NCBI RefSeq assembly: GCF_900240285.1
Contig: NZ_OESS01000002.1
Span: forward strand, 248,001 to 312,000
DNA from: Halobacillus sp. Marseille-P3879
Lineage (GTDB): Bacteria; Bacillota; Bacilli; Bacillales; Halobacillaceae
Length of the DNA stretch: 64,000 nt
Reading direction: 5' to 3'
Within the stretch, counting starts at the first letter, position 1; the number at the start of each line of letters is the position of its first letter. The translations under genes and the position numbers were made by a program. Shown here piece after piece: positions 4,931 through 57,410 of this stretch. The notes beneath the pieces were generated by a model, which saw nothing but the letters and a program-made list of their open reading frames with translations, was not told the origin of the DNA and did not search any database.

Positions 4931-4935
4931 CGTTA

Positions 4936-7248: not shown

Positions 7249-7277
7249 AAGCCAGGCGACCCAGCCTGGCTTTTTTT
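7249..7277 (+). terminator. Rho-independent terminator
   Basis: AAGCCAGGC (7249-7257) pairs perfectly with GCCTGGCTT (7264-7272) around a six-base loop and is followed by a run of T. Confidence 0.92.
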
Positions 7278-7324
7278 GGTGAGATAATGTTCTGAAGGAA
7301 TGGATGTGGGTGGTTCATTCTTCT

Positions 7325-7474: not shown

Positions 7475-7780
7475 CAGATCACCTCCTATTTATCTAATAC
7501 TCTACTTTATGTGCAATAGATTTATTGTGGAAAGGCTTTCGACTTATTCTCGAAAAAGATTCAGGCGTTTCTATATTAATTTCGTATGCTGCTTATATTA
7601 AAACTGCACAGTTCTTCTTTAGCTATTGGAGCAACGGTGTTTTTAACCACAATAAAAGCATGTAATTTTAACACGTAAAAGCAATATCACTTTAAATAAC
7701 ATTCTTGATAGAAAATTTAGACAATTCTAAACTGAAATTGGTATTGTTTTTTTAAAACAAATAGTAAAGGAGGATCAATC
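7475..7780 (+). promoter_or_regulatory. Control region of the aminotransferase operon
   Basis: This 306-base gap holds no gene. A sigma-A-like promoter is visible: TTGATA at 7705-7710, 17 bases, TAAACT at 7728-7733. An inverted repeat TTTAGA-CAAT-TCTAAA (7715-7730) overlaps the -10 and could be an operator. I saw no T-box or sigma-54 consensus, although the related aco and bkd operons of B. subtilis depend on sigma-L. Confidence 0.5.
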
Positions 7781-10964: not shown

Positions 10965-10980
10965 GGAAGGAGAAAATCAG

Positions 10981-12183: not shown

Positions 12184-12216
12184 TTTATAGCTCTTAATAA
12201 CGTGAGGAGGCGTATC

Positions 12217-13635
12217 GTGGAAAAAAGAACCCCTTCGTTCGGAATGTCGGTCGTCATTTTCTTATCGATAGTGGCTTTACTAGGAGTCAGTATCCTTGTC
12301 TTTGGAGCAGCGCCGCATATTCCAATCATACTCGCTGCCATTATTGTCACGGTCTATGGATTCAGGCTTGGCTATACGTGGAAAGAACTTGAGAAAGCCG
12401 TAACGAAAGGGGTATCTCATGGGGTCCCCGCTATTCTCATTTTAAGTTTAATTGGAATTCTTGTCGGGGTCTGGGTGCTAAACGGCACCGTGCAGACAAT
12501 AACTTTTTATGGACTGCACGTTTTGTCACCATCCATATTTCTAGTATCTGCTGTTATTATTACGGCTGTGGTAGCAACAATGACGGGGAGTTCCTGGAGT
12601 GCTATCAGTACAATAGGTATAGCATTAATGGGGGTTTCCTACGGAATGGGAATCCCATCCTCCATCGCGGCTGGAGCAGTAGTCTGCGGGGCAATTTTTG
12701 GTGACAAAATGTCTCCCCTCTCCGATACAACCAACTTAACAGCAGCAACAGCGAAGGTTGACATCTTTCAACATATTAAGCATATGCTCTGGACGACTAT
12801 TCCGAGTTTAATAATTACGCTTATTATTTTCAGTGTGATCAGTTTTACGACGAACCCGAATACAGTAAGCACGGAAAATGTAGAGGCTATGATGGCAACG
12901 CTGGAAACGGAGTATAATTTATCTCCTATTGCACTTCTATCGCCATTATTAATCATTGTACTTGCTTTTTGGCGTGTCAGTTCGATCCCTGCCCTCGTGA
13001 TTGGATTGCTGGCAGCTGTTATGACCACTTTCTTCACCGTCCCAGGGGTTACTTTTGGCGAAATCATGAGCACGGCTCACTTCGGGTATACCGCTGAAAC
13101 AGGCGACGAAGCAATTGACAGTCTTCTTTCGTTAGGCGGTCTTGACAGTATGCTTTTTGGAGTCTCTCTTATATTAATCGCGTTATCATTTGGGGGGATT
13201 ATTAAAGAAATTGGCATTGCTTATGCAATCATTGATGGAATGCGGAACTTCTTGATAAGCCGTGGAAATGTTGTGTTAGCTACGGTATTGTCCTGTCTTG
13301 GAATTAATATCACTGTAGGGGAACAATATCTATCCATTATATTGCCGGGACAAATGCTTGAAGACAGCTATAGGAATGCTGGTCTGCATCCAAAAAACTT
13401 ATCCCGGACTTTAGAGGATGCAGGGACGATTATTCATCCACTCATTCCATGGGGAGTTACAGGGGTTTTCATCATGTCCACCTTGAATATCGGGGTGGGG
13501 TATATTCCATTTGCCTTTATTTGTTTTATTACTCCTTTAATCGCTATTCTCTATGGTTACACGGGATTTGCCCTTCCTGCCCTTCGCGAAGACAAACTAC
13601 AAGCAGAAGATCACATGTTAGAAAAAGACGCATAA
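12217..13635 (+). CDS. NhaC-family antiporter
   Basis: A 472-residue, about 12-helix protein of the NhaC Na+/H+ antiporter family, with typical segments TGSSWSAISTIGIALMGV, GDKMSPLSDTTNLT and LEDAGTIIHPLIPWGVTG. Relatives include MleN-type malate/lactate antiporters, and some NhaC members have been predicted to carry tyrosine in Gram-positives. Its place inside a putative aromatic amino-acid operon makes amino-acid or organic-acid transport as likely as plain Na+ export. GTG 12217 follows GAGGAGG; the GTG at 12202 precedes that site and was rejected. Confidence 0.9.
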   Translation: MEKRTPSFGMSVVIFLSIVALLGVSILVFGAAPHIPIILAAIIVTVYGFRLGYTWKELEKAVTKGVSHGVPAILILSLIGILVGVWVLNGTVQTITFYGLHVLSPSIFLVSAVIITAVVATMTGSSWSAISTIGIALMGVSYGMGIPSSIAAGAVVCGAIFGDKMSPLSDTTNLTAATAKVDIFQHIKHMLWTTIPSLIITLIIFSVISFTTNPNTVSTENVEAMMATLETEYNLSPIALLSPLLIIVLAFWRVSSIPALVIGLLAAVMTTFFTVPGVTFGEIMSTAHFGYTAETGDEAIDSLLSLGGLDSMLFGVSLILIALSFGGIIKEIGIAYAIIDGMRNFLISRGNVVLATVLSCLGINITVGEQYLSIILPGQMLEDSYRNAGLHPKNLSRTLEDAGTIIHPLIPWGVTGVFIMSTLNIGVGYIPFAFICFITPLIAILYGYTGFALPALREDKLQAEDHMLEKDA

Positions 13636-13650
13636 ATGGAGAGGTTTAGT

Positions 13651-14505
13651 ATGGACGCACAAGTACAAGTTGTCAAGGATACCCTCCCATCAATGGATGG
13701 GGAGCGAACATTTTACTACACGCTTCCGAATAAAATAGAAGGCCGGATTCCTTTAGTGTTTTGTTTTCACGGAGCGGGGAGCAGTGCTAAACATCATATG
13801 AGGATGACAGGTTTACTTGAGTTGTCAGAAATACAAGCGGCGTGCTTTGTTTTTCCGGAAGCAATGAACATGGAATCAGGTAATCCAATGACCAAACAAT
13901 TTAATGAAGGAAGGTCGAAAAATCCTTCGTGCCAAAAGGAAGTGGACGATGCCGGTTTTGTGATCGATATGATTGATTATTTTCGATCTATAACGGCTAT
14001 TGATGAAAAACGGATATATGTTACAGGATTCTCGAATGGTTCTGCTTTCGCTATGAAGATGGCGATCGACCACCCTGATTTGTTTGCAGGGGTTGGAGGA
14101 GTGGGAGGCCCGGTTGTTGACTATATAGGCAATAATGTGAAATGGAAGCACGCTATGCCCCTCATATTCTTTATGGGTAAAGCAGATCCGGTTGTACCGT
14201 TTGATGGTCACTACCAGTCAAACTATATGATTGATCAATTATTATCGGCAAGACAGACAGCATTAACTTTTGTACGCTCCCTATCTTTTCCGGTGGAAGA
14301 AGAGGTGTTCAAAAAGGATGGCTATACCCGATTCCGCTATTTTTCACGGAATGATACAGCTGAAGTTGTTTTTTACGAGATCAACGAATCTGGACATACG
14401 TGGCCTGGAGGCCCCTTTCAGTCAAACCAGCCATTCGGAAAAGTGTGTACTGCGTTACATGCAACGGAACTTATGTGGGAGTTCTTAAAGAAACATCGTA
14501 GATAA
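13651..14505 (+). CDS. PHB-depolymerase-like serine esterase
   Basis: A 284-residue alpha/beta hydrolase of the LpqC/Esterase_phd type. The oxyanion segment FCFHGAGSS comes early, the nucleophile is S128 in GFSNG, an Asp lies in MGKADPVVPFDG, and the His in ESGHTWPGG. There is no signal peptide, so it should be cytoplasmic. ATG 13651 follows GGAGAGG; the operon is closed by the terminator at 14517. In this setting it might hydrolyse an aryl ester or thioester such as a product of the dehydrogenase; that is inference. Confidence 0.88.
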   Translation: MDAQVQVVKDTLPSMDGERTFYYTLPNKIEGRIPLVFCFHGAGSSAKHHMRMTGLLELSEIQAACFVFPEAMNMESGNPMTKQFNEGRSKNPSCQKEVDDAGFVIDMIDYFRSITAIDEKRIYVTGFSNGSAFAMKMAIDHPDLFAGVGGVGGPVVDYIGNNVKWKHAMPLIFFMGKADPVVPFDGHYQSNYMIDQLLSARQTALTFVRSLSFPVEEEVFKKDGYTRFRYFSRNDTAEVVFYEINESGHTWPGGPFQSNQPFGKVCTALHATELMWEFLKKHRR

Positions 14506-14516
14506 ACTTTTTTAAA

Positions 14517-14540
14517 TAAACCCGAATTAAATCGGGTTTT
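14517..14540 (+). terminator. Rho-independent terminator
   Basis: AACCCGA (14519-14525) pairs with TCGGGTT (14532-14538), followed by TT and an AT-rich stretch. It separates the aminotransferase-E1-E2 operon from the hpaG operon. Confidence 0.75.
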
Positions 14541-14576
14541 ACATATTGCTCTCATATGAAATAACTATGTTATGAA

Positions 14577-14589
14577 TATTTTATATATA
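14577..14589 (+). promoter_or_regulatory. 13-bp motif shared with the hpaE control region
   Basis: TATTTTATATATA occurs here, 55 bases before hpaG1, and identically at 17673-17685 between lysR and hpaE. It may be part of a LysR-regulator site used by both hpa operons. The motif is AT-only, so chance is not excluded. Confidence 0.3.
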
Positions 14590-14644
14590 GGACGGCGGGT
14601 GGTATTTTATATTTATCAAATAAAGTACTGAAGGAGGAAGCAGG

Positions 14645-15406
14645 ATGAATATTAAAGTACGGGCTCGTGTTAATGGAAATTATTACGATCAGTTTCTCCC
14701 TGCTGCTTTAAAGGAAGGGGTGATAGATGCAGAGGAATCAATGATTCATTCCTGGGCATCACCAGTTTGCGGCACTGTTTATGGAACGCTGTTAAATGAT
14801 CTTCAGTCATTAAAGGCGATGGGCGACCTTCTCAATAAGCCTCCATATGAACAGCCGCCAAAAGCTCCCGTTCTCTATATAAAACCAATCAATACAATAA
14901 CTGGACACCATACAGAAGTAATCATTCCTGGAGAAGCTGCGCAATTGAAAGTAGGAGCAAGTGTCGGAATTGTGATTGGAAAAAGAACAGCTAAGGTCAA
15001 AGCTGAAGATGCTTATGAATTTATAGAAGGCTATACACTCGTTAATGATTTAAGTCTCCCCCATGCCAGTATTTTCCGCCCAGCTATTAAGGAGAAGGTG
15101 AGAGATGGGTTCTGCCCGATCGGACCCTGGGTTGTTCCACAAAAATATATTCCGAATCCGGAAAAAATAAAGATTTCTGTTTATATAAATGGTGAAAAAA
15201 AGCATCATTATTCATTGGAGAAACTAGTCCGTCCTATTCCCCAGCTCCTACAGGACGTTTCGGAATTTATGACCCTTGATCAAGGTGATTTATTAATGGC
15301 GGGGTGCGGCGCCAACCTGCCGACTGCTGAATCAGGAGACATCGTAAGGATAGAGGCTGCAGAAATTGGTGCTCTTGAAAATAAGCTCAGGAGGTGGTGG
15401 ACTTGA
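14645..15406 (+). CDS. hpaG1: HpaG N-type FAH-family decarboxylase/isomerase
   Basis: A 253-residue fumarylacetoacetate-hydrolase-fold protein resembling the N-terminal half of enterobacterial HpaG/HpcE (5-oxopent-3-ene-1,2,5-tricarboxylate decarboxylase / hydroxyheptadiene-dioate isomerase). Visible features: VLYIKPINT, VGASVGIVIGKR, GYTLVNDLSLPHAS and DLLMAGCGANLP. In place of the usual E-x-E metal ligands it reads V-G-I near the glycine-rich strand, as in the less active half of the bifunctional enzyme. Binding site AAGGAGGAAG. First of three overlapping or close hpa genes. Confidence 0.88.
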   Translation: MNIKVRARVNGNYYDQFLPAALKEGVIDAEESMIHSWASPVCGTVYGTLLNDLQSLKAMGDLLNKPPYEQPPKAPVLYIKPINTITGHHTEVIIPGEAAQLKVGASVGIVIGKRTAKVKAEDAYEFIEGYTLVNDLSLPHASIFRPAIKEKVRDGFCPIGPWVVPQKYIPNPEKIKISVYINGEKKHHYSLEKLVRPIPQLLQDVSEFMTLDQGDLLMAGCGANLPTAESGDIVRIEAAEIGALENKLRRWWT

Positions 15407-16137
15407 AAACTGCACGGGTAGCCTTTGAAGGGGATATTTTTTACGCGGTCCCATTGGAGGGCAAATTGAAACTTGCCAATGGCAGGATAGTTGAAGAAGA
15501 ACAGGTCGCCTGGCTTCCTCCTGTAAAGCCTGGCACTTGCTTCGCACTCGGGTTAAATTATATGGATCATGCAACAGAGCTTAAGTTCAAAGCGCCGGAA
15601 GAACCACTCGTGTTTCTAAAAGGACCAAATACATTTGTGGGTCACCGCGGCCGAACGAAACGTCCAGAGGATGTAACAAACATGCACTATGAATGTGAGC
15701 TTGCTGTTATTATCGGCAGGCAGGCAAGAGCGGTAAGCAAGGCGGAAGCTTACGATTATGTGGCTGGCTACACTATAGCGAATGATTATGCTTTTCGTGA
15801 TTATTTAGAAAACTATTATCGTCCGAACTTACGTGTTAAAAATCGTGATCACAGTACGCCGCTTGGTCCCTGGTTTGTGGATGCTGCGGATATTAAAGAC
15901 CCAATGAATCTCTCGCTGCGTACGTTTATCAATGGGGAAAAGGTCCAGGAAGGCACAACGAACGACATGATATTCAAGGTAGATGATCTAATTGAGTATT
16001 TAAGCGGGTTTATGACATTAAATCCGGGAGATTTATTATTAACAGGAACGCCTAAAGGTACTATAGATACAAAGGTAGGAGATGAGGTAGTCACTGAGAT
16101 TGAAGGATTAGGAAAGTTAATAAACACGATTGTATAA
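15403..16137 (+). CDS. hpaG2: HpaG C-type FAH-family isomerase/decarboxylase
   Basis: A 244-residue FAH-family enzyme matching the C-terminal half of HpaG. Metal-site motif HYECELAVIIGR (E-x-E), then GYTIANDYAFRDY, and the closing DLLLTGTPKG. With HpaG1 it should decarboxylate and isomerise the ring-cleavage product to 2-oxohept-3-ene-1,7-dioate. TTG 15403 follows AGGAGG by eight bases and overlaps the hpaG1 stop (TTGA); two GTG codons at 15394/15397 fall on the binding site. Split rather than fused, as reported for other Gram-positives. Confidence 0.92.
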   Translation: MKTARVAFEGDIFYAVPLEGKLKLANGRIVEEEQVAWLPPVKPGTCFALGLNYMDHATELKFKAPEEPLVFLKGPNTFVGHRGRTKRPEDVTNMHYECELAVIIGRQARAVSKAEAYDYVAGYTIANDYAFRDYLENYYRPNLRVKNRDHSTPLGPWFVDAADIKDPMNLSLRTFINGEKVQEGTTNDMIFKVDDLIEYLSGFMTLNPGDLLLTGTPKGTIDTKVGDEVVTEIEGLGKLINTIV

Positions 16138-42611: not shown

Positions 42612-44126
42612 ATGTTTAACAAATTCACTTCTGTGTTTAAAGTATCAGCAAGCATTATGCTTGTCCTCGTTGTTATTGGAGTATCCTGGCCAGATGGATT
42701 AGAGAGCGCCACGACGACTATCCAGGGTTTCATTTCAGATAAAATGGGCTGGTATTATTTAATCGTTGTCACTTTATTTGTTTTAGTCTGCCTTGTTTTC
42801 TTAATTACACCGTTAGGAAAAATAAAGCTTGGGAAGCAGGGGGAAAAACCCGAATTCTCCAGACCTACCTGGATTGCTATGTTATTTAGTGCGGGCATGG
42901 GTATCGGTCTTGTATTCTGGGGAACTGCTGAACCAATCAGTCATTATGCCGTTAGTTCTCCAACGGGGGAAACAGGTACTGATCAAGCTGTCAAAGATGC
43001 TTTGCGTTACACATTTTTTCACTGGGGTATTCATGCCTGGGCGATATATGGAATTGTTGCCCTTGTTCTGGCCTACTTTAACTTCAGACATGGCAGACCC
43101 GGTCTGATTAGTGCCACCTTATCTCCTATCATAGGTAAGAGTGCTGAAGGTTTAACAGGAAAGGTTATAGACGTGCTCGCTGTCATTGCTACTGTGATAG
43201 GCGTGGCCACTACTCTTGGATTTGGGGCTGTGCAGATTAATGGAGGACTGGCCTACTTATTTAATATACCCAATAATTTTCTTATGCAATTGACTATCGT
43301 TGTCATCGTTACTGTTCTATTTATGATTTCTGCATGGACTGGACTCGGTAGGGGAATTAAGATTTTAAGCAATGCTAATATGGTGTTGGCTGTTCTATTA
43401 TTTGGCTTAATATTTGTGGTCGGGCCCACGATGTTTATATTAAATATGTATACAAATTCAATAGGCAGTTATTTACAAAATCTGCCTGCGATGAGTTTTC
43501 GGATTGCTCCTTTGGATGACAAAATAAGAGATTGGATAAATGAGTGGACTATCTTTTACTGGGCGTGGTGGATTGCATGGTCTCCGTTTGTCGGTGTATT
43601 TATAGCCAGAGTCTCCAGAGGACGAAGTATTAGAGAATTTGTCTTCACTGTATTAGTCGTGCCTTCCATTATAGGCTTCTTGTGGTTTGCCACTTTTGGA
43701 GGAACGGCAATCTCCCTGGAACATAACGGGATAGAGGATATTTCTTCTTTAGCAACCGAAGAGTCATTATTTGGAGTTTTTTCCAATTTTCCTTTGAGTA
43801 TGGTTTCATCCATTGTCGCTATAACTCTGATATGTACGTTCTTTATCACTTCTGCTGACTCAGGCACATTTGTATTAGGAATGATGACTACTGGAGGTTC
43901 AGAAACGCCAGGCACCACTATTAAGTTAACCTGGGGAGTTTTACTTTCAGCAACAGCATTAGCCCTTTTATACACGGGCGGGCTTCAAGCTCTGCAGAAT
44001 ACTATGATTATTGCTGCTTTACCTTTTTCTATTATCATGCTGTTGATGACGATCAGTTTTATAAAATCTATCTATAAAGAAGGAAAAGAATTAGGTATTA
44101 GTAAAATTGAGAAAAATAATAAGTAA
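42612..44126 (+). CDS. BCCT-family betaine/choline/carnitine transporter
   Basis: A 504-residue, 12-helix Na+-coupled transporter of the OpuD/BetP type. Family stretches: GMGIGLVFWGTAEPISHYA, FHWGIHAWAIYGIVALVLAY, and the signature WTIFYWAWWIAWSPFVGVFIARVSRGRS with the Trp/Tyr box that binds trimethylammonium groups. GMGIG rather than GMGMG around the Na2 region. It probably imports glycine betaine or a related osmolyte. Only a short charged C-terminal tail is present. Confidence 0.95.
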   Translation: MFNKFTSVFKVSASIMLVLVVIGVSWPDGLESATTTIQGFISDKMGWYYLIVVTLFVLVCLVFLITPLGKIKLGKQGEKPEFSRPTWIAMLFSAGMGIGLVFWGTAEPISHYAVSSPTGETGTDQAVKDALRYTFFHWGIHAWAIYGIVALVLAYFNFRHGRPGLISATLSPIIGKSAEGLTGKVIDVLAVIATVIGVATTLGFGAVQINGGLAYLFNIPNNFLMQLTIVVIVTVLFMISAWTGLGRGIKILSNANMVLAVLLFGLIFVVGPTMFILNMYTNSIGSYLQNLPAMSFRIAPLDDKIRDWINEWTIFYWAWWIAWSPFVGVFIARVSRGRSIREFVFTVLVVPSIIGFLWFATFGGTAISLEHNGIEDISSLATEESLFGVFSNFPLSMVSSIVAITLICTFFITSADSGTFVLGMMTTGGSETPGTTIKLTWGVLLSATALALLYTGGLQALQNTMIIAALPFSIIMLLMTISFIKSIYKEGKELGISKIEKNNK

Positions 44127-48809: not shown

Positions 48810-50024
48810 ATGGATCCATTAGATATCGTTAGTCATTTACATAAAATAAAACCTGTTTATCAGCCTGTAATAAGCGCAATTAAACATGATGTTATCGGCT
48901 ATGAAGTACTGGGACGCTTTAAGCATATGGAAGAGTGGAAAAGTCTTGGAGAATTTTTTCATGATGGCGATGTCCCGGAGGAATTTAAAGTTGAAGTGGA
49001 TCAGCATCTGCTGCAGCTGGCTATTTCAGATATGCTTGCTGACAATAAAGAAGGCTACCTCTTTATCAATCGTAACGCCAAACAACTTATGATTAATGAT
49101 GGCGAGGATTTACTTGAGACTTTGCTGCTCTATAAACAAAAAGGGTTTGAAATGGACCGAATTGTGATAGAAGTGACGGAACATGATTTTGATGAGGAGT
49201 TTGAAGAGCTTAATCATTTGCTTCTTTACTATAAGACGTTCGGCATTCAAGTGGCGATTGATCATGTGGGTGCTAAAAGTTCGAATATTGATCGTATTCG
49301 TCAGCTTGAGCCTCACATTTTAAAGATCGATACGAAATCTATACGCAGGCACAATTCAGAGGGGTTTCAAGATATTATGTATTCCTTGTCTATGCTGGCA
49401 CAGAGAATTGGTGCAGCATTGCTCTTTGAAAATATTGAAGATAATTTTCAACTCCATTTTGCCTGGAAACATGGAGGGCGGTACTATCAAGGGTTTTATT
49501 TAGCTAAGCCCGACTTCGATCTTCTATCAAAAACAGACCTTTCCATTAACCTTACGAACAAGGTAGCCAGTTATATTCAAAGGGAAAAGTCTTTAATTGA
49601 GCAGCGTCTTGAACTCGTTTCCGCCTGGGAAAATAAAGTGAAGGAGATTCTCTCGAAGTGGGAAGGCCCCAAAAAAGTAGATTTGTTTATAGATTGGGTA
49701 ACAAGCCAATTTGATAATGAAAGCTTTAGAATGTTTGTGTGCAATAGTGACGGCCAGCAAATCTCTTCCAACTTCAGGAAGCACGAGAAATTATGGGAGC
49801 TCGAGCCGCACAAAAAAGGGTCCAACTGGGCATTCCGACCTTATTTCTTAGAAAATGTGATGCAAATGAAAACGGCCGGGAGAGGCATATTGTCGGATAT
49901 TTATTCTGACATAGAGACAAAAGATATGATTCGGACTTTTAGTTTTCCCTTGACGGACCAACACTTTTTATTTATTGATCTTAAATATTCTTATATGTAC
50001 AACCATGAGTGTCTGCTCATTTAA
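48810..50024 (+). CDS. YkuI-like degenerate EAL protein
   Basis: A 404-residue cytoplasmic protein: EAL domain (about 10-245) and a PAS-like YkuI_C domain (about 255-400). The EAL motif reads E32-V-L; N88, E121, D151 and K172 are in place, but the second Asp of the D-D-F-G metal motif is His (D151-H152-V-G). Loss of this residue argues against phosphodiesterase activity and for c-di-GMP sensing; B. subtilis YkuI binds c-di-GMP. Binding site GAGGAGGG. Single gene. Confidence 0.9.
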   Translation: MDPLDIVSHLHKIKPVYQPVISAIKHDVIGYEVLGRFKHMEEWKSLGEFFHDGDVPEEFKVEVDQHLLQLAISDMLADNKEGYLFINRNAKQLMINDGEDLLETLLLYKQKGFEMDRIVIEVTEHDFDEEFEELNHLLLYYKTFGIQVAIDHVGAKSSNIDRIRQLEPHILKIDTKSIRRHNSEGFQDIMYSLSMLAQRIGAALLFENIEDNFQLHFAWKHGGRYYQGFYLAKPDFDLLSKTDLSINLTNKVASYIQREKSLIEQRLELVSAWENKVKEILSKWEGPKKVDLFIDWVTSQFDNESFRMFVCNSDGQQISSNFRKHEKLWELEPHKKGSNWAFRPYFLENVMQMKTAGRGILSDIYSDIETKDMIRTFSFPLTDQHFLFIDLKYSYMYNHECLLI

Positions 50025-50106
50025 AAACATTAATGATAAGCAGGCTGTTTTCACTTGCATTAATTTGAAAGGCAGATAGTGGAAGCATAAGTCTGTTCAG
50101 GTAAAC

Positions 50107-50141
50107 CAAAGGTTCAGCCGGAATTGCGGGCTGAACCTTTG
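50107..50141. terminator. Strong bidirectional terminator
   Basis: CAAAGGTTCAGCC (50107-50119) pairs perfectly with GGCTGAACCTTTG (50129-50141). It ends the YkuI-like gene region and the gbsA operon. Confidence 0.88.
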
Positions 50142-50146
50142 TCTAT

Positions 50147-51616
50147 TTAGAACCAGTGAAGCGGAGACGGGTTTGTGTTTTCATAGATATGTTTTACTTC
50201 CGTATATTCTTCCAGTCCTTGTTTCCCAAGTTCTCTCCCAATTCCAGAAGATTTATATCCTCCCCAGGGAGCCTGGGCGAAGTAAGGATGGAAGTCATTT
50301 ATCCAAACAGTACCCATGCGTAGTTCGCCTGCTACTCGTTCAGCTTTTCTTATATTTGTTGTCCATACTGCCCCGGCAAGGCCGTAGATTGTATCATTGG
50401 CTAATGTAACGGCTTGTTCTTCTGTATCGAACCTTTCAATCGTCAATATAGGACCAAATGTTTCTTCCTGAACGATGCGCATAGAAGAATCACATTCGGT
50501 AAAAATGGTAGGTTCAAAGAAAAAACCTGCTTGTAATTCCTCAGCCTCAGGACGCTTCCCTCCTGTCATAAGACTGGCTCCTTCTTTAATTCCGATAGCT
50601 ACATAGTTTTCTACTTTTTTAAGGTGGTCGTTTGAAATGAGCGGACCTGATTGAGTCGTGTCGTCGAAACCGCTGCCGAGCTTGATTTGCTTCGTTCGTT
50701 TCACGAGTTCTTCAACAAACCGGTCATGAATAGCATCGTGGACGAGCAGCCGTGCTCCAGCTGAACAGACTTGCCCGGCATGGAAGAACACAGCATTAAG
50801 TGCCTGGTCTAAGGCTGTATCAAAATCTGCATCTTCAAATACGATGTTTGGATTTTTGCCGCCAAGCTCCAGGGCAACCTTTTTAAAATTGCTTGAAGCA
50901 GCGGTCATTATTTTGCGGCCGGTTTCAATTCCACCGGTAAATGATATTAAGTCCACCTCATGGCTTTCAGCAAGGAGCTGTCCTGTTTTTGCCCCCGATC
51001 CTAACACTAAGTTAACTACACCCTTAGGTACACCAGCTTCTTCGATAAGCTCGGTCACTTTTATAGTTGTGAGCGGCGTAATTTCGCTCGGCTTGATGAT
51101 CATTGTGTTCCCTGCAGCTAAAGCAGGTGCTATTTTCCAGGAAGCTTGTAACAGAGGATAATTCCATGGTGTAATCTGCCCGCAGACTCCCACAGGTTCT
51201 CTAACCACCTTGCTCCTGGAATCAGGGATGGGGGAAGCAATAACTTCTCCACCATCTTTGTCAGCGAGTCCTCCATAATAACGAAAAACTTCTGCAATAT
51301 CGTTCATATCATCAATACTTTCAGTAAGGGTTTTACCTGAATCCAGTGTTTCCAGTTCAGCCAGTTCTTGCACATCGCGTTCGATAAGCTCGGCAATTTT
51401 TAATACAAGCTTTCCACGTGTAGAAGCCGGGATGTTACGCCATTCTCCCTCATCAAAGGCTTCTCTTGCTGCCTGTATGGCAGAGACTGTATCCGTTTCG
51501 TCCCCTTCAGGAACTTGCGCGATAGTCTCCTGATTAAATGGATTAATGATTGTGCGGGTATTTCCAGAAGCTGCTTCAACCCACTCACCATTAATATACA
51601 TCTTTTCAATTCTCAT
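50147..51616 (-). CDS. gbsA: Betaine aldehyde dehydrogenase
   Basis: A 489-residue NAD-dependent aldehyde dehydrogenase nearly the length of B. subtilis GbsA (490) and matching it as I recall over long stretches: IINPFNQETIA, GLADKDGGEVIASPIPDS, PWNYPLLQASWKIAPALAAG, catalytic Glu in LELGGKNP, catalytic Cys in HAGQVCSAGARL, and WINDFHPYFAQAPWGGYK. It oxidises betaine aldehyde to the osmoprotectant glycine betaine. The usual partners gbsB (choline dehydrogenase) and gbsR are absent; instead it is the last gene of a six-gene operon with a Rieske protein. Confidence 0.95.
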   Translation of the reverse strand: MRIEKMYINGEWVEAASGNTRTIINPFNQETIAQVPEGDETDTVSAIQAAREAFDEGEWRNIPASTRGKLVLKIAELIERDVQELAELETLDSGKTLTESIDDMNDIAEVFRYYGGLADKDGGEVIASPIPDSRSKVVREPVGVCGQITPWNYPLLQASWKIAPALAAGNTMIIKPSEITPLTTIKVTELIEEAGVPKGVVNLVLGSGAKTGQLLAESHEVDLISFTGGIETGRKIMTAASSNFKKVALELGGKNPNIVFEDADFDTALDQALNAVFFHAGQVCSAGARLLVHDAIHDRFVEELVKRTKQIKLGSGFDDTTQSGPLISNDHLKKVENYVAIGIKEGASLMTGGKRPEAEELQAGFFFEPTIFTECDSSMRIVQEETFGPILTIERFDTEEQAVTLANDTIYGLAGAVWTTNIRKAERVAGELRMGTVWINDFHPYFAQAPWGGYKSSGIGRELGKQGLEEYTEVKHIYENTNPSPLHWF

Positions 51617-51628
51617 TACGCTTACCTC

Positions 51629-52162
51629 CTAAAAATGATAGATGAGTATGCCTGCTATTCCCGATAAGGTGACTACCCAAACAGGCGATACTTTCTTATA
51701 AAGCAGGATGAATGCAGCCGCCATAATGATCAGCTGGGAATACTCAACTGAAAGCGAGAATAGTCCGTTCTGCCTCCCCATTCGGATTCCAGCGAATAAA
51801 ATTAAAGCAGTGATCACAGGATGGATGCCATACATTCCAGAACTTAGTAGACTCGTATTCTGATACCGGGCTATTACTTTAATGAGCAGGAATACAATTA
51901 TGAGGGAGGGTAGTAAAGTACTGACTCCTGCTATGACGGCCCCTCCAATACCAGAGGTTTGGTAACCTATAAATAAAGCTGAATTCGTTGCGATTGGTCC
52001 TGGAGCCGAGCCTGCGACTGCAACGATATCAGCAAACTGCTCAGGAGTAAGCCACTCATGTTTTTCGACGGCACGATCCATAAGCGGTATCATCGCATAG
52101 CCGCCCCCGAAACCAAATAATCCTATTTTAAAAAACTCGATGAAAAGTAGAATGGACTGCAT
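51629..52162 (-). CDS. Half-size CHR (chromate-type) transporter, second subunit
   Basis: A 177-residue, about five-helix membrane protein with the CHR-domain motif FGFGGGYAMIPLMDRAVE and the P-G-P segment SAPGPIATNSALFIGY. Short CHR proteins work as pairs; the partner gene ends five bases upstream. The family is known for chromate export but most members have unknown anionic substrates. AAGGAG precedes ATG 52162. Confidence 0.88.
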   Translation of the reverse strand: MQSILLFIEFFKIGLFGFGGGYAMIPLMDRAVEKHEWLTPEQFADIVAVAGSAPGPIATNSALFIGYQTSGIGGAVIAGVSTLLPSLIIVFLLIKVIARYQNTSLLSSGMYGIHPVITALILFAGIRMGRQNGLFSLSVEYSQLIIMAAAFILLYKKVSPVWVVTLSGIAGILIYHF

Positions 52163-52167
52163 ATAAA

Positions 52168-52749
52168 CTATCTCCTTTTACAACGATAAGTATAGGAGAT
52201 CCATCCGATTAAGATGCCCCCGGCAATTAAAAATAGTGGGGAGGTGTCTAGGACGGCGAGTAAACCAATTGCAGATATAAACACCAACACGGTCAATCGA
52301 TCTTGAAGAGCAATTCTTCCTATTTTAAAAGCAGCGAAGAAAATCAGCCCTACAATAGCGGGTCTAATTCCTTTAAATGCCTCCTGAATAATCGCCAGGT
52401 CATGGTAAGTTAGAAACAAGTATGTTAACAAGGTTACGATTAAGGCAGAAGGAAAGAGTAAACCCAGCATTGAAGCTACCGCACCGCTTAACCCTCTTAA
52501 ACTAAAACCGATATATATCGCGGCATTGATTGCAATTGATCCCGGGGTGGATTGAGCAATTGTAACAATGCGGGGGATATCGTCTTTGACAAACCAGTTT
52601 TTCTTTTCCACCATAACTGACTCAATATGAGGAATTATGGCCAAGCCGCCGCCAAATGTAAGCGGACTGATTTTTATAAACGTAACAAAAAGTTCAAATA
52701 GAAAACTAAATGAATAATAATATTCTTTTTCCTGTGGATAAACGTTCAA
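52168..52749 (-). CDS. Half-size CHR (chromate-type) transporter, first subunit
   Basis: A 193-residue CHR-domain protein: ISPLTFGGGLAIIPHIESVMVEKKNW and QSTPGSIAINAAIYIGF (P-G-S in place of P-G-P). It pairs with the next gene. TTG 52749 follows GGTGGAG, which overlaps the end of the reductase gene. Position inside a catabolic-looking operon suggests transport of a pathway anion rather than chromate; that is inference. Confidence 0.87.
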   Translation of the reverse strand: MNVYPQEKEYYYSFSFLFELFVTFIKISPLTFGGGLAIIPHIESVMVEKKNWFVKDDIPRIVTIAQSTPGSIAINAAIYIGFSLRGLSGAVASMLGLLFPSALIVTLLTYLFLTYHDLAIIQEAFKGIRPAIVGLIFFAAFKIGRIALQDRLTVLVFISAIGLLAVLDTSPLFLIAGGILIGWISYTYRCKRR

Positions 52750-52752
52750 AAG

Positions 52753-53754
52753 TTATTCTCCACCCAGTACTCTTGTACTGTGGGGCGGCTGCACCCTCGT
52801 TTCAGGATCAATGTAATGCTTAGCCTGACTGATTGCAGTTGGCGCTTCACCAAAACCGGTAGCTATTAGTTTGACTTTACCTGGATAAGTGGTAATATCA
52901 CCAGCTGCATAAATCCCTGAAATGTTGGTTTCCATCTGCTGGTTTACGACAATGGAATTCTTCTCGAGCTCTAATCCCCATTCCTTAATGGCTCCAAGAC
53001 TTGATAGAAACCCGTGGTTAACAATCAGTGAATCGACTTCGATGTTTTCTGAAACCTCTCCCTTCGGCTCTTTTAACACGACCGAATGAAGCGAGTCTTC
53101 CGTACCGATCAGATCTTCAATCGCCATAGGGGTTTTAATTTGCACGTTTGTTTCTTTTAATTGGTTTATACTGTGCTCATGGGCGCGGAATTGATTTCTC
53201 CGATGTACAAGAGTGGTTTCTGCTGCAATGTCAGATAGCATTAACGCCCAATCGACTGCAGAATCTCCTCCTCCTGAAATACACACTCTTTTTCCTTTAT
53301 GAGCCTGCAGGTCGGTTACCGAATAGAATAGGTTTTTACCTTCATATTTAGATGCCGTCTCATGCTTCAGGCGTCTCGGCTGAAAGGCTCCCGCACCACT
53401 TGTTATTAATATCGTCTTCGCATAATGGACGGTTTCGGTTGTGGTTACTTTAAATAGGTGGTCGTCCAGCTTTTCTACGTCTTGAACATTCTCCTCAAGG
53501 CAGATCTCCGGATTAAATTGGCGGGCCTGTTCTTCTAATTGCTGGACTAAGTCTTTTGCCCGCACTTTTGGCCATCCGGCTACGTCATAAATATATTTTT
53601 CAGGATACAAGGCCATCAACTGACCCCCGGTTTGCGGCAGACTGTCTATAACCTTCACAGACATTTCACGCATACCGCCATAAAAGGCAGCAAATAACCC
53701 GGTTGGTCCTCCGCCGATAATAATGACATCAGATACGTTTTCTGTATGATTCAT
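52753..53754 (-). CDS. Ferredoxin--NADP reductase (YumC type)
   Basis: A 333-residue thioredoxin-reductase-like FAD protein without the CxxC redox pair. FAD motif IIIGGGPTGLFAAFYGGMRE, NADPH motif ISGGGDSAVDWAL, C-terminal GIYAAGDITTYPGKVKLIATGFGEAP. This is the TrxR-like FNR of Bacilli (YumC). Here it directly follows a Rieske ferredoxin, so it should pass electrons from NAD(P)H to it. ATG 53754 follows GAAGGTG; 53772 has no binding site. Confidence 0.92.
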   Translation of the reverse strand: MNHTENVSDVIIIGGGPTGLFAAFYGGMREMSVKVIDSLPQTGGQLMALYPEKYIYDVAGWPKVRAKDLVQQLEEQARQFNPEICLEENVQDVEKLDDHLFKVTTTETVHYAKTILITSGAGAFQPRRLKHETASKYEGKNLFYSVTDLQAHKGKRVCISGGGDSAVDWALMLSDIAAETTLVHRRNQFRAHEHSINQLKETNVQIKTPMAIEDLIGTEDSLHSVVLKEPKGEVSENIEVDSLIVNHGFLSSLGAIKEWGLELEKNSIVVNQQMETNISGIYAAGDITTYPGKVKLIATGFGEAPTAISQAKHYIDPETRVQPPHSTRVLGGE

Positions 53755-53775
53755 CTTTTTCACCTTCTTCATCGA

Positions 53776-54135
53776 TTATTTATAAACAATAACGTTTTCT
53801 TCTTCAATTCTTACGTTAAAGCTCGGAATTTTTTTATTAGGATTGGCGAGCATTCTACCTTCATTTTTTATATCGAATTCTCTTCCGTGCCAGGGACACC
53901 GGATAATTTCTCCTTTATGACAGTAATCATAATCGCCTGGCTTACTTGAAGAGGTCGTTGCACCGCAGACCATGCCTTTATCAAGAGGGGCGCCCTGGTG
54001 TATGCATTGATTCATAAATGCATAGAATTCGCCGTCAGGAGTGCGGCATATTAATACATTTTGTTTTCCGAAATTTGATTTCATCATTCCACCTGGTTCT
54101 ATATCCGAAGTTTTGCATACGATTTGTTCTCTCAT
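53776..54135 (-). CDS. Rieske [2Fe-2S] ferredoxin
   Basis: A 119-residue single Rieske domain. Cluster ligands: C-x-H in QCIHQGAPLDKG and C-x-x-H in RCPWHGREFD, with 37 residues between them, longer than usual because of an insert (VCGATTSSSKPGDYDYCHKG). No transmembrane helix, so it is a soluble electron carrier as in Rieske oxygenase systems. Twelve bases after the amidohydrolase gene; followed by its likely reductase. No oxygenase large subunit is nearby. Confidence 0.92.
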   Translation of the reverse strand: MREQIVCKTSDIEPGGMMKSNFGKQNVLICRTPDGEFYAFMNQCIHQGAPLDKGMVCGATTSSSKPGDYDYCHKGEIIRCPWHGREFDIKNEGRMLANPNKKIPSFNVRIEEENVIVYK

Positions 54136-54147
54136 AGCTGCTCCTCC

Positions 54148-55209
54148 TTAATCATTTGGTAATTTAGGATAAAAATTCTTCGCGTTATCTGAAAAAATCT
54201 TTTGCTTTAATTCTGCTTCCATATTTGGTAAAGCTCTGTGTGGAGAGTCATAGTCCCAGTGCGGGTAATCTGTAGAAAAACAGAGCATTTCGTCTGTCCC
54301 CATTTGTTCGAGAAGCGACATGAATTCTTTTTTAGTCAGCTCTTCGGCTGGTTGAGTAGTAAATCGTACCTGTTCTCTCATAATCTGGCTTGGTTTTCTT
54401 TTCAGCCACGGTACTTCGTGACGCAAATCACGGTATTGCTGATCCATCTTCCACATGAGGTGGGGAATAAAGGTAAACCCGCCTTCGATCATCATAAGCC
54501 CAAGGTTTGGGAATTTCTCAAATACTCCATTAAACATCATATTAGTAATCTGTTTCATATGAGCAGTCGGTATTAAAGTGTGCCATTCAATAAAATAACT
54601 AGGCCATTTTCCGTAATAAACCGGTGGTTCATTGTGGTGCATGCCGATCATCAAATTATGTTTTTCAGCTGCTTCAAAAATCGGGTGGTAGTAAGGTTGA
54701 CCCCACATAATGTCATCAATGGGGAGGAGAACCTGCACCATTTTTGGATGAGGACCTACTCTTTCAATCTCTCTAACCGCTGCTTCAGGATCCTGAGCTG
54801 CAATGTGCACGGAACCATATAAGCGCTCATCCATCTCTAACCAATTTTCAATTTGCCAGTCGTTATAGGCTGTGGCTAAAGCACCTGCCATTTCATGCCA
54901 GCCGTGCATGGAAGAAGGGGAAGGATCAAGAGCACTGGTTAAAATCCCGTACTCATGACCTATCTCATCTAACAGCTGCTCCTGCATAAAAGAAAGATCT
55001 GAGCCTGCCGGGCGGCCATCTGGAAGTTTAGCATCTGCACGATCGACCCCTGCCACTGAGGGCTGAGTGTAGGGCATATGTTTTTCCTGGATCCAATGGC
55101 AGTTCTCAATGTAATGTCGAAACGGTTCTTCCAGTCTGTCCAGAATGTCTGTGTACTGTACGCGTTCATGAATGTCCGTATCGACAAGTGGGATTTTTTT
55201 GTTCGTCAT
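54148..55209 (-). CDS. Amidohydrolase_2-family protein
   Basis: A 353-residue TIM-barrel metal enzyme of the Amidohydrolase_2 (ACMSD-like) family. Metal motif D12-x-H14 (VDTDIHE), a His pair in MIGMHHNEPP, and the late Asp in FSTDYPHWDYDSPHRALP. Such proteins are decarboxylases or C-C/C-N hydrolases; several long-named homologues sit in aromatic or Rieske-oxygenase clusters. ATG 55209 follows GAGGAGGC; the longer frame to 55278 runs over the promoter. First gene of the operon ending at gbsA. Substrate unknown. Confidence 0.87.
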   Translation of the reverse strand: MTNKKIPLVDTDIHERVQYTDILDRLEEPFRHYIENCHWIQEKHMPYTQPSVAGVDRADAKLPDGRPAGSDLSFMQEQLLDEIGHEYGILTSALDPSPSSMHGWHEMAGALATAYNDWQIENWLEMDERLYGSVHIAAQDPEAAVREIERVGPHPKMVQVLLPIDDIMWGQPYYHPIFEAAEKHNLMIGMHHNEPPVYYGKWPSYFIEWHTLIPTAHMKQITNMMFNGVFEKFPNLGLMMIEGGFTFIPHLMWKMDQQYRDLRHEVPWLKRKPSQIMREQVRFTTQPAEELTKKEFMSLLEQMGTDEMLCFSTDYPHWDYDSPHRALPNMEAELKQKIFSDNAKNFYPKLPND

Positions 55210-55620
55210 AATTAATGCCTCCTCGAGTTGATGTCGCGAATAACTTAAATCATAGCAGGCTCTTTTTTTCTTCTCCAAATCTGCTGAGTACCACTCAGTG
55301 GCATTCAGATCGTTCAGTGAACGTCAGTGAAGCTCAGTGACGTTCAGTGATAACTTTTCATTTTGTATAAAAAGTTTTTTGTTTTATTGATTTTTTTGTC
55401 TAAATAGGGGTAAATATTGAAGAAACCTTGAAGAGAGGGGGCTTTTGGCATAGTGGAATAAAAGATAAACATGTCGAAAAATGCGGCATTTTCTCATATT
55501 TTAGACTAAGAGCGTTTGCAATAAGGCTGATTCGTATGTAATATATGAAACTGTTATTGCGTTCCATCCATTTAACATTGTTTTTTCTTGGAAATTTATT
55601 ATTACATAAGAGGTGAATCT
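55210..55620. promoter_or_regulatory. Divergent control region, amidohydrolase operon / BCCT
   Basis: The 411-base gap has no gene. The operon promoter on the minus strand is TTGGAG (55273-55278), 18 bases, TATGAT (55249-55254). Directly upstream lies the TCAGTGA repeat array (55296-55349). On the BCCT side, bases 55507-55520 read on the minus strand as TGCAAACGCTCTTA, a cre-like site with two mismatches but intact CG core. I found no clear BCCT promoter. Confidence 0.6.
55296..55349. repeat. Phased TCAGTGA direct-repeat array
   Basis: CAGTG or a one-off variant begins at 55296, 55306 (CAGAT), 55315, 55325, 55335 and 55345: six copies spaced 9-10 bases, one helical turn. The middle also forms an inverted repeat AACGTCA-N11-TGACGTT. 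The array ends 18 bases upstream of the -35 box of the minus-strand operon, the place of an activator site. Confidence 0.85.
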
Positions 55621-57129
55621 ATGAAGAAAGTAACGTACGTTTTTTGGTATGGTCTTGCTGTTTGTGTGTTGTTTGTATTGTGGGGAGTAGTAGCACCCGA
55701 GAATTTAAAAAATGTCACGGCGGAAGCAACTTCTTTCATTTCTACTAGATTTGGCTGGTATTATTTGTTGATTATCATGATCATGCTGGTATTCTGCATA
55801 TATTTAATTTTTTCGCGTTTTAACAAAATTAAACTTGGCAGGGAAAATGATACTCCCGAATTTAGTTTACCTGCGTGGTTTGCCATGCTGTTTAGTGCAG
55901 GCATGGGAATGGGTTTAGTTTTCTGGACAACTGCAGAACCTATTTCTCATGCTTTCTTAAGCAGTCCCCGTGCGGAAGCAGGAAGCGATCAAGCGATTAA
56001 AGAGTCGCTTCAGTTCTCGTTTTTCCACTGGGGAATTCATGCGTGGGCAGTATACGCACTTGTCGCATTAGTTCTCGCCTATTTTAAGTTTCACCGAGGA
56101 TATCCTGGATTGGTAAGTGCTACACTTGTGCCGATTTTTGGCAAGAAACGGATGGAAGGTTTTGCTGGAAAGCTCGTTGACACTTTAGCCGTTGTCGCCA
56201 CAGTAGTGGGGGTGGCAGCTACTTTAGGTTTTGGTACGGCACAAATAAATGAAGGGCTTGGTTTCCTGTTTAATACACCCAACAATTATTGGGTACAGCT
56301 GCTTATTTTAGTTATTGCCACAGGATTGTTTATATTCTCCGCATGGTCGGGAGTAAGCCGCGGTATTAAATATTTGAGTAATATTAATATGATTCTTGGA
56401 TTTCTTCTGATGATCCTTTTACTCATTGTCGGGCCGACTTTGTATATTCTGAATATGTTTACTGATTCACTTGGAGGTTATATTACAAACTTTTTTAATA
56501 TGAGTTTTCGTATCGCTCCATTAGATGAAGAAGGACGTACATGGATTGACAGTTGGACTATCTTTTATTGGGCATGGTGGATATCCTGGTCTCCATTTGT
56601 CGGTATTTTTATTGCACGTATTTCAAGAGGTCGTACAATCAAAGAATTCATGATGGGCGTCCTATTCGTGCCTTCTTTAGTATGTTTTATCTTTTTTGCT
56701 GTCTTCGGGGTTTCTGCTTTAGATCTCGAACAGCAGGGAGTTGCAACTATTTCAGACTTCCCGATGGAGACGGCCACATTCGCTATGCTTGAGCAATACC
56801 CGCTTGGGATGCTTATGTCATTCGTTACGATTGTCGTAATTGCGGTATTCTTTATTACATCTGCAGATTCGGCTACTTTCGTACTGGGTATGCTGTCAAC
56901 GTCTGGTTCACTCAATCCTTCAGGAATGGTGAAAATTGTCTGGGGCTTAAGTCTTTCAGCTATGGCAGCCATCATTGTTTACTTTGGAGGAACCCAGGGA
57001 TTGCAAAATGTTTTAATTATAGCTGCTTTCCCATTCTCTGTAGTTGTCTTATTAATGGGGTACTCATTCTTTAAATCAGCCAATCAGGAAATATCAGCGG
57101 AGAAAAAGAAACGAAGAAAGCAGGTTTAA
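55621..57129 (+). CDS. BCCT-family transporter
   Basis: A 502-residue transporter with 12 helices, similar to the one at 42612 but clearly distinct. It has GMGMGLVFWTTAEPISHAF, FHWGIHAWAVYALVALVLAY and WTIFYWAWWISWSPFVGIFIARISRGRT, with the aromatic box for quaternary ammonium substrates. ATG 55621 follows AAGAGGTG; TTG 55588 has no site. Divergent from the Rieske/GbsA operon, so it may import that operon's substrate. Terminator follows. Confidence 0.94.
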   Translation: MKKVTYVFWYGLAVCVLFVLWGVVAPENLKNVTAEATSFISTRFGWYYLLIIMIMLVFCIYLIFSRFNKIKLGRENDTPEFSLPAWFAMLFSAGMGMGLVFWTTAEPISHAFLSSPRAEAGSDQAIKESLQFSFFHWGIHAWAVYALVALVLAYFKFHRGYPGLVSATLVPIFGKKRMEGFAGKLVDTLAVVATVVGVAATLGFGTAQINEGLGFLFNTPNNYWVQLLILVIATGLFIFSAWSGVSRGIKYLSNINMILGFLLMILLLIVGPTLYILNMFTDSLGGYITNFFNMSFRIAPLDEEGRTWIDSWTIFYWAWWISWSPFVGIFIARISRGRTIKEFMMGVLFVPSLVCFIFFAVFGVSALDLEQQGVATISDFPMETATFAMLEQYPLGMLMSFVTIVVIAVFFITSADSATFVLGMLSTSGSLNPSGMVKIVWGLSLSAMAAIIVYFGGTQGLQNVLIIAAFPFSVVVLLMGYSFFKSANQEISAEKKKRRKQV

Positions 57130-57166
57130 AAAAATCAACCAGTCATTCGGCTGGTTGATTTTTTTG
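57128..57166 (+). terminator. Strong rho-independent terminator
   Basis: AAAAATCAACCAG (ending 57142) pairs perfectly with CTGGTTGATTTTT (from 57151), followed by more T. Confidence 0.93.
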
Positions 57167-57410
57167 GTGAAAAAGCAGATTGGGTTTTTATGTTAAAATG
57201 ATTACAGGACGTTCCTTCTTTATTGGGTCTCTCCCTGCTAATAAACCTTGAAATTATTGTACTGGGATAATAATTAGGGGAAGGGGTGACTGACCTTAAG
57301 AAGTTATTATATTATCAATAGCCAGGACTAACCGCGAAAAATTTAAAAAATTCCGTAACTATTGTAACCGTTGTCTTTTTTTATTTAAATCTAGAGAGAG
57401 GAGGGGGAGC

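Follow-up and report, generated by a model that had tools for sequence, protein, structure and literature searches.

An amidohydrolase-related protein as the most likely terminal oxygenase of a GbsA-linked operon in Halobacillus sp. Marseille-P3879

The window, namely the entire 64,000-nucleotide stretch of DNA analyzed here, contains a six-gene operon in which the terminal oxygenase is most likely the protein annotated as an amidohydrolase. Judged from its sequence, this protein, encoded at 54148–55209 on the reverse strand, belongs to the amidohydrolase-related dinuclear oxygenases (AROs), of which AibH2 and SfbO are examples. We propose, with a probability of about 0.6, that the operon specifies a three-component monooxygenase that would convert an imported trimethylammonium compound to betaine aldehyde, which the betaine aldehyde dehydrogenase GbsA would then oxidize to glycine betaine. 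The family labels "amidohydrolase" and "chromate transporter" mask this proposed function.

All seven open reading frames described in the initial annotation were recovered by ORF calling and Pfam searches, and both the operon and the divergent BCCT transporter are real. The ARO gene (PF04909, E = 4e-34) is followed on the reverse strand by those for a Rieske [2Fe-2S] ferredoxin with a CxH...CxxH motif (53776–54135; PF00355, E = 5e-17), a flavin ferredoxin reductase that the initial annotation called, and we presume to be, YumC-type (52753–53772; Pyr_redox_2, E = 2e-35), CHR half-transporters A (52168–52749, TTG start) and B (51629–52162), both of PF02417 (Chromate_transp, E values of 4e-41 and 5e-46), and GbsA (50147–51616; Aldedh, E = 2e-182). 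The BCCT transporter, of the betaine type, is encoded on the forward strand at 55621–57129 (PF02028, E = 5e-188). The close packing of the six genes holds, with gaps of 12, 3, 3, 5, and 12 bases by the present starts rather than the 3–21 bases given originally, and all six are presumably read from one promoter.

The arrangement was followed across 58 orthologous loci, comprising the window, 43 loci with G handles, and 14 from a further orthologue search; 20 others, picked by hand, were left out as apparent repeats of genomes already counted. Where named, the carriers are mainly salt-loving bacilli. According to tblastn, the ARO and ferredoxin genes adjoin in all 58 loci. Because all 58 loci encode the ferredoxin, 46 of them the reductase, and 42 GbsA (split or frameshifted copies counted, those of GbsA being at L091, L187, L196, and L202), the arrangement is not a product of chance. 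GbsA was not detected by tblastn at the other 16 loci. Gene order is kept, and a scattering of the genes, the outcome that the initial annotation named as counting against its reading, did not turn up. Note that at L083 (G009) the reductase gene is broken yet was counted; CHR is absent there. A betaine-type importer (BCCT or OpuAC) accompanies 32 of the 58 loci, and an anion transporter (CHR, TauE, or SulP) 24.

Both a PDB search and Foldseek place the AROs as the nearest kin of this PF04909 TIM barrel. The best PDB matches are 8SM9 (1.8e-98), 8SM8, 8SM7, 8SM6, and AibH1H2, and with the AlphaFold model (pLDDT 87.3) Foldseek ranks 1–20 are ARO entries throughout. The ARO nearest by sequence search, 8SM9 (44% in Foldseek), has a source given as "C. 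fi", which we read as Cytobacillus firmus. The metal ligands are predicted to be Asp 12, His 14, His 191, Glu 242, Asp 314, and His 317. These are kept in 57–58 of the 58 orthologues, the sole missing cell at Asp 12 and His 14 being a gap, and they are identical to those of AibH2, namely Asp 25, His 27, His 211, Glu 265, Asp 337, and His 340 (available text of PMC7782822). Additionally, Asp 319 is present in all 58 orthologues. Its equivalent, Asp 342 of AibH2, is a second-sphere acidic residue that the mononuclear AibH1 does not have (PMC7782822, available text). The fold and its kin, the six ligands, the second-sphere acid, and an adjacent small Rieske protein, all features of ARO membership, were each found. 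By analogy, the site would hold a Mn/Fe or Fe2 dinuclear cofactor and is a putative center of O2-dependent hydroxylation. The resemblance to SfbO and to the AROs of Liu et al. 2024 (8SM6–8SM9; available text of PMC10811679) extends to the fold, with a TM-score of ∼0.9, and to the ligands; unlike 8SM6–8SM9, the present clade, whose members are at least 69% identical to the protein in the window, is GbsA-linked. The initial annotation had supposed that an oxygenase large subunit was missing and that the amidohydrolase handled a side product. On the basis of the ligands and the PDB and Foldseek matches, no oxygenase is missing. The side-product role is unlikely.

The Rieske ferredoxin and the YumC-type reductase are likely the electron chain of the ARO. 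Electrons from NAD(P)H would pass through the reductase to the ferredoxin and thence to the dinuclear site, the ferredoxin being cast as donor by its likeness to AibG. AibH1H2–AibG–AibF, the 2-aminoisobutyrate monooxygenase of Rhodococcus wratislaviensis (available text of PMC7782822 and PMC10401708), is a similar case, in which the PF04909 oxygenase is encoded in one cluster with its small Rieske ferredoxin and flavin reductase, as well as an aldehyde dehydrogenase and a permease. The present operon differs in that it encodes a single ARO rather than an H1/H2 pair, and its reductase is a Pyr_redox_2 protein, unlike AibF, an FMN protein of 322 residues with a [2Fe-2S] domain. Moreover, the presence of GbsA, the BCCT transporter, and CHR suggests a substrate of the quaternary ammonium type.

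Rieske ferredoxins typically serve Rieske oxygenases, and the initial annotation looked to such an enzyme elsewhere, of the choline or carnitine monooxygenase type with a PF00848 alpha subunit, as the recipient of this ferredoxin and reductase, with the amidohydrolase an ordinary hydrolase. A PF00848 protein does occur in 6 of 41 genomes searched, among them G007, which belongs to the same genus and carries the ARO cluster. The other 35, the present genome included, gave no PF00848 match, and none lies in the cluster. The search for the catalytic domain employed PF00848, and the list of PF00355 matches covers Rieske domains of other C-terminal families; the six such matches in this genome lie in open frames of 114, 123, 178, 183, 515, and 539 codons, unlike the 359–450 codons of the relatives' PF00848 matches. 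Given also a dinuclear ligand set whose nearest structures are oxygenases, the Rieske oxygenase explanation is largely refuted and is regarded as highly improbable.

GbsA is, by its sequence, a betaine aldehyde dehydrogenase and is predicted to oxidize betaine aldehyde. It scores 728.4 bits against TIGR01804 (NCBIfam betaine-aldehyde dehydrogenase; cut-off 668.6), and its best PDB matches are the betaine aldehyde dehydrogenases 4MPB and 4Q92. A GbsA above the cut-off is found in 42 of the 43 ARO genomes; G038 has the ARO and lacks GbsA. In the order sample, GbsA occurs in 29/30 genomes with an ARO orthologue versus 96/367 others (Fisher, 5e-15; n = 397, both order searches being taken as the same 397 genomes from their equal number and shared handles), and in only 2/10 genomes with remote AROs alone. 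The cluster GbsAs do not form one clade but are mixed among the canonical ones (three changes; AU p 1.8e-5), and 11 canonical GbsAs from this genus and its near kin are nested in a clade of cluster GbsAs. This interleaving is a likeness to the GbsAB and BetA–GbsA systems of choline oxidation. The operon differs from them in that an oxygenase would replace the dehydrogenase upstream, GbsR was found by tblastn at 0/58 loci, and the promoter element is another. Replacement of gbsB, as originally suggested, is ruled out for this genome by a separate gbsA–betA pair at G000:C7:212–215 kb, where GbsA accompanies the choline dehydrogenase-like GMC enzyme BetA. Many ARO carriers, this one included, already have GbsA–BetA or GbsA–GbsB, which leaves the purpose of a second route to be explained. 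Among 14 genomes examined, the sole GbsA of G087 and of G390 lies in the ARO cluster, with no BetA or GbsB matches; G174, whose GbsA lies outside the cluster, likewise gave nothing for BetA and no match at GbsB level.

Ahead of the ARO gene, on the reverse strand at 55281–55350, are seven 10-bp units in a phased array; four are exact copies of TCACTGANNN and three are degenerate. The array abuts the -35 element of a promoter-like sequence, TGGAGA-17-TATGAT with TG before the -10 element (55249–55277, reverse strand). Since a scan of 49900–57400 gave 20 promoter-like sites versus 17.3 (sd 4.6) in shuffles, the assignment of this promoter rests on position and conservation. The array precedes the ARO in 54 of the 58 loci, and in a consensus built from 50 orthologous loci it is followed by TTTGG. 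It is predicted to be a regulator site, through which the operon would be controlled. In the canonical gbsA loci examined, covered mostly to ∼1.5 kb on each side, no strict double unit was found. The array is also seen ahead of the non-adjacent BCCT gene of G087; in six loci with BCCT in tandem before the ARO none precedes BCCT, which means that shared control of the ARO and BCCT genes is not the rule.

That an imported quaternary ammonium compound is oxidized, as first suggested, is very likely. By tblastn, BCCT is found in 23/58 loci and OpuAC in 9/58, the latter Pfam-confirmed in three. The BCCT protein of the window, presumably the importer of the substrate, is recognized by TIGR00842 (bcct) and scores 632.8 bits against NF047988 (betaine_BCCT), just below the cut-off of 650. 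Choline carriers occur within both families. With regard to the anion transporters, tblastn detected CHR in 16/58 loci, TauE in 5/58, and SulP in 3/58. In 44 loci, CHR was found at 14 versus 0.79 expected and TauE at 4 versus 0.70. These counts are inflated by the relatedness of the genomes, and the genome background, which covers CHR and TauE, shows both to be common in all 43 genomes (2–8 and 2–7 matches, respectively). Two weak calls were counted, at L155, where the CHR lies 4 kb upstream and has 29% identity, and at L208, where TauE lies 5 kb off on the opposite strand. Of 34 loci without any anion transporter, 19 bear GbsA; a phylogenetic pair test of GbsA versus anion transporter was not significant (4–5 independent pairs, with 17/61 inner branches open in a quick tree). 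Some relatives without CHR have TauE or SulP after GbsA, which provides a clue to the substrate. Chromate resistance was rejected as the function of the CHR pair, given scores of 61–111 bits, far below the cut-off of 250 for ChrA/ChrB (NF053759/NF053760), although these proteins may still transport chromate. Half-transporters A and B are a probable oxyanion exporter.

According to the monooxygenase reading, the substrate would enter via BCCT, or perhaps an OpuAC-type ABC system in other genomes, and be hydroxylated by the ARO to free betaine aldehyde, from which GbsA would produce glycine betaine, a compatible solute. The CHR pair, or TauE or SulP in some relatives, would export an oxyanion freed by the ARO reaction. 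The recurrence of these transporters suggests, without proving, a sulfonated or sulfated substrate. With N,N,N-trimethyltaurine, hydroxylation beside the sulfur would yield betaine aldehyde and sulfite; with choline-O-sulfate, O-dealkylation would yield betaine aldehyde and sulfate. TauD hydroxylates taurine next to its sulfur with release of sulfite, for which TauE is an exporter. Unlike the ARO, TauD is a 2-oxoglutarate enzyme, and the substrate proposed here would bear a trimethylammonium group. This narrower scheme for halophilic bacilli, in which an O2-dependent desulfonation would split a sulfur-bearing quaternary ammonium osmolyte into betaine aldehyde and an oxyanion (sulfite or sulfate) that a separate exporter removes, with a dedicated regulator reading the array, is tentative. 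Of four SfbO sulfate contacts mapped, Trp 341 is kept (Trp 318), whereas Asn 67, Arg 232, and Arg 235 are Pro 50, His 210, and Ile 213 here, which counts against reading sulfonate binding straight from SfbO; a fifth in the available text of the paper, Tyr 280, was left out because the chain used has Asp at 280 under the fitting offset. Among the matches listed from the open-access literature, no report of bacterial trimethyltaurine use was found, and no title or abstract opening told of an ARO that takes part in the metabolism of choline, betaine, or sulfonated betaines.

The main rival substrate is choline itself. Plant choline monooxygenase, a Rieske oxygenase, converts choline to betaine aldehyde, and an ARO acting on choline would provide a second O2-dependent route by way of an unrelated fold and metal center, with CHR, TauE, and SulP in another role. 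The frequency of GbsA in the clusters, the three genomes without BetA or a GbsB-level match, and the choline carriers of the BCCT and OpuAC families all favor such an activity. It would be redundant, however, in this genome and in the many carriers with BetA or GbsB beside a GbsA outside the cluster, it leaves the recurring oxyanion transporters unexplained, and the BCCT protein scores closest to the glycine betaine model, though below its cut-off. We consider it doubtful. Alternatively, the ARO might act after GbsA, N-demethylating glycine betaine to dimethylglycine and formaldehyde, with GbsA feeding choline catabolism. The importers are glycine betaine importers by family, SfbO starts an N-dealkylation (available text of PMC10811679), and in G039 a remote ARO (37%) has as neighbors BCCT and an enzyme of the Oxidored_FMN/Pyr_redox_2 type resembling dimethylglycine dehydrogenase. 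Yet in G087 and G390, where searches for BetA and GbsB gave no match, GbsA would under this order lack an evident source of betaine aldehyde. Among the minority of flanking ORFs scanned, no enzyme acting on dimethylglycine or sarcosine was recognized in the clusters, and the anion transporters are again not accounted for. It is judged unlikely.

PtmU3 is an ARO with an assigned native substrate. Among the AROs treated in the available text of PMC7782822, PMC10401708, and PMC10811679, a native substrate is assigned for AibH1H2 only, and those of 8SM6–8SM9 are given as not known (PMC10811679). Powell et al. describe 555 AibH2-like proteins as uncharacterized, with few co-occurring proteins in their neighborhoods for inferring function (available text of PMC10401708). 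The neighborhood of the present clade is informative in that GbsA points to the product, BCCT and OpuAC to the substrate class, and CHR, TauE, and SulP to a possible leaving anion, and thus the substrate can be tested with few compounds. If the monooxygenase reading is true, halophiles would have an additional way of making glycine betaine, by means of a non-Rieske oxygenase, and sulfonated osmolytes might meet a new fate.

The six-gene operon and the divergent BCCT transporter described in the initial annotation were recovered by ORF calling and profile searches, with the protein families as named there. The genes, encoding an Amidohydro_2 protein, a Rieske ferredoxin, a YumC-type reductase, two CHR half-transporters, and GbsA, span 50147-55209 on the minus strand with intergenic gaps of 3-12 bases, and the BCCT gene lies at 55621-57129 on the plus strand. 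The window corresponds to G000:C8:248001-312000 of a 4.17 Mb genome assembly. A second BCCT gene (42612-44126, plus strand) is found 11 kb from the first, and its product scores 663.6 bits with the NCBIfam glycine betaine uptake model, above the 650 cut-off. Beside the operon, at 48810-50024 on the plus strand, is the gene for a 404-residue protein that appears by eye to be EAL-domain-like.

The Rieske oxygenase alpha subunit that had been thought missing was not located: PF00848 has no match in the organism's own genome and was matched in six of the 41 genomes searched. The same genome contains six PF00355 matches in open frames of 114, 123, 178, 183, 515, and 539 codons. The oxygenase is, rather, most likely the "amidohydrolase" itself, which we regard, at a probability of about 95%, as an amidohydrolase-related dinuclear oxygenase (ARO) by identity, its metal content and activity being predicted. 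This near certainty comes from the structural matches, the conserved ligands, and the small Rieske protein in the same unit. The top PDB matches are 8SM9 (1.8e-98), 8SM8, 8SM7, and 8SM6, followed by AibH1H2, with PtmU3 lower. Entries 8SM6-8SM9 are ARO structures from Liu et al. 2024 (PMC10811679), who use a co-transcribed small Rieske protein to recognize such enzymes; AROs were also treated by Powell et al. 2023 (PMC10401708). The AibH2 ligands Asp 25, His 27, His 211, Glu 265, Asp 337, and His 340, together with the second-sphere Asp 342 (PMC7782822), align with Asp 12, His 14, His 191, Glu 242, Asp 314, His 317, and Asp 319 of the window protein. These seven residues are retained in 57-58 of the 58 orthologues, one row being gapped at Asp 12 and His 14. 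In a Foldseek search with an AlphaFold model (pLDDT 87.3, 31-row alignment), ranks 1-20 were all ARO entries, with a best TM-score of about 0.9. A true alpha subunit (PF00848) does occur in a close relative that also carries the ARO cluster (L095 in genome G007, 4897-16054), near a reductase like that of the window (59%), a GbsA-like dehydrogenase (51%), and, by eye, ferredoxin-like and transporter-like ORFs.

Across 397 sampled genomes of the order, orthologues of the window ARO (P0006) share at least 69% identity and are separated from the next AROs, at 46% or less; a family search placed the P0006 family in 15 of 44 genomes. Of 34 named orthologous loci, 33 belong to Halobacillus, Thalassobacillus, Alkalibacillus, Gracilibacillus, Alteribacillus, Salibacterium, and other such genera, which are salt- or salt-and-alkali-loving, and one to Bacillus sp. 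FJAT-44742. Across the 58 loci compared, the ferredoxin is present in 58, the reductase in 46, GbsA in 42, BCCT in 23, the OpuAC glycine betaine binding protein in nine, CHR in 16, TauE in five, and SulP in three. Pfam confirmed TauE in L091, L092, and L151, SulP in L149 and L154, and OpuAC in L152, L153, and L155, the remaining neighbor assignments being BLAST-based. A betaine-type importer of some kind accompanies the ARO in 32 loci and an anion transporter in 24, 23 of which have GbsA. Against genome-wide densities computed for CHR and TauE over 44 loci, CHR occurs at 14 versus 0.79 expected and TauE at four versus 0.70, values inflated by kinship. A quickly built ARO tree, many of whose forks are weak, gave 11 changes for CHR, three each for TauE and SulP, five each for OpuAC and GbsA, and 12 for BCCT; on its independent pairs, the association of GbsA with anion transporters was not significant. 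Locus L083 of G009 (7899-8582), with a broken reductase gene and no CHR pair, is a decaying operon copy.

GbsA exceeds the curated cut-off in 42 of the 43 ARO genomes, all but G038. Within the order sample, 29 of 30 genomes with an ARO orthologue encode it versus 96 of 367 others, a comparison confounded by kinship, as do two of ten with remote AROs alone. The exception, G038, has BetA and no GbsA over the cut-off; its locus (L093, 6789-8155) contains the ARO and Rieske protein alone, without the promoter array. Most of the non-cluster GbsA genes examined adjoin GbsR, BetA, or a GbsB-like dehydrogenase, and a separate gbsA-betA pair is located at C7:212-215 kb in the organism's own genome. The cluster GbsAs do not group as a single clade: the tree requires three changes, and the AU test gives p 1.8e-5. 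Indeed, 11 GbsAs from GbsR/BetA-type loci of the same genus and near kin fall inside a cluster clade, as if cluster and canonical copies had been exchanged. This interleaving favors the cluster enzyme being a true betaine aldehyde dehydrogenase. The ARO might instead act only after GbsA. Among 14 genomes examined, however, G087 and G390 encode their sole GbsA inside the ARO cluster, and the BetA and GbsB searches matched nothing in them; GbsA is also present in G174, where BetA is likewise unmatched and no match reaches GbsB level. In these three the ARO would be the only source of betaine aldehyde revealed by the searches, which argues against that order of events.

The substrate is likely a trimethylammonium compound, since two unrelated families of betaine-type importers, BCCT and OpuAC, recur. 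Betaine aldehyde could arise from choline or from a compound (CH3)3N-CH2-CH2-X losing X as an anion. The occurrence of three unrelated families of anion transporters in one gene neighborhood favors the latter type, with X being sulfonate (trimethyltaurine) or O-sulfate. We nevertheless rate a sulfur-bearing substrate as less likely than not, and choline as only slightly less probable than that. Several observations count against sulfur: Trp 341 alone is kept of the sulfate contacts in SfbO, and 34 of the 58 loci are without an anion transporter. At the position of SfbO Arg 232 the window protein has His 210, and the aromatic residues Trp 104, Trp 202, and Phe 206 are particular to its clade. 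No sulfite or sulfate enzyme was recognized among the cluster ORFs examined, a minority of the flanking ORFs having been scanned. Trimethyltaurine has been treated as an osmolyte in physical chemistry (PMC5762795), and no report of its use by bacteria was found in titles and abstract openings of the open-access literature.

Upstream of the ARO gene, just before the -35 region, seven 10-bp units form an array (55350-55281, minus strand); four match TCACTGANNN exactly and the other three are degenerate copies. The array ends at a promoter-like TGGAGA-17-TATGAT; a scan gave 20 promoter-like sites versus 17.3 in shuffles, and is thus no proof of a promoter by itself. In 54 of 58 loci the roughly 350 bases before the ARO start contain two TCACTG motifs or more, counting both strands, versus 13 of 459 control upstream regions drawn from the same loci. 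In 50 of 58, TYACTGA occurs at least twice at a spacing of 10, 20, or 30 bases. The fetched DNA, 2.08 Mb from 236 loci with some places represented more than once, contains 229 strict double units, of which 228 lie no more than 450 bases upstream of an ARO. The remaining one (L149 at 14392, minus strand) is 211 bases upstream of the G087 BCCT gene, which is about 7 kb from the ARO start with other genes between. The ARO and BCCT genes of G087 thus seem, from this shared motif, to answer to one regulator. Six tandem BCCT-ARO loci (L143, L147, L182, L185, L187, and L210) have no array before BCCT, which speaks against a general rule. GbsR is present in none of the 58 loci, and the strict double unit is absent from all ten remote-ARO loci checked.

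A locus with a remote ARO, L094 of G039 (1158-14850), combines an ARO of 37% identity with a Rieske protein, a BCCT-like transporter, an aldehyde dehydrogenase, an EutQ-like cupin, FeS and CCG proteins, and an Oxidored_FMN enzyme, and is possibly an ARO-based betaine demethylation pathway. Haloarchaeal AROs of 37-38% identity on plasmids of Haladaptatus pallidirubidus (L102, 6461-10563) and Natrinema (L105, 5390-9540) occur with a Rieske protein, and genes for a carbon-nitrogen hydrolase and a glycine betaine ABC transporter lie nearby.

The ARO family is already known, and no work connecting it with GbsA, importers, oxyanion transporters, or the promoter array was found in the open-access literature (titles and abstract openings). 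By its predicted function, the operon is an ARO-type three-component monooxygenase of betaine metabolism in halophilic bacilli.
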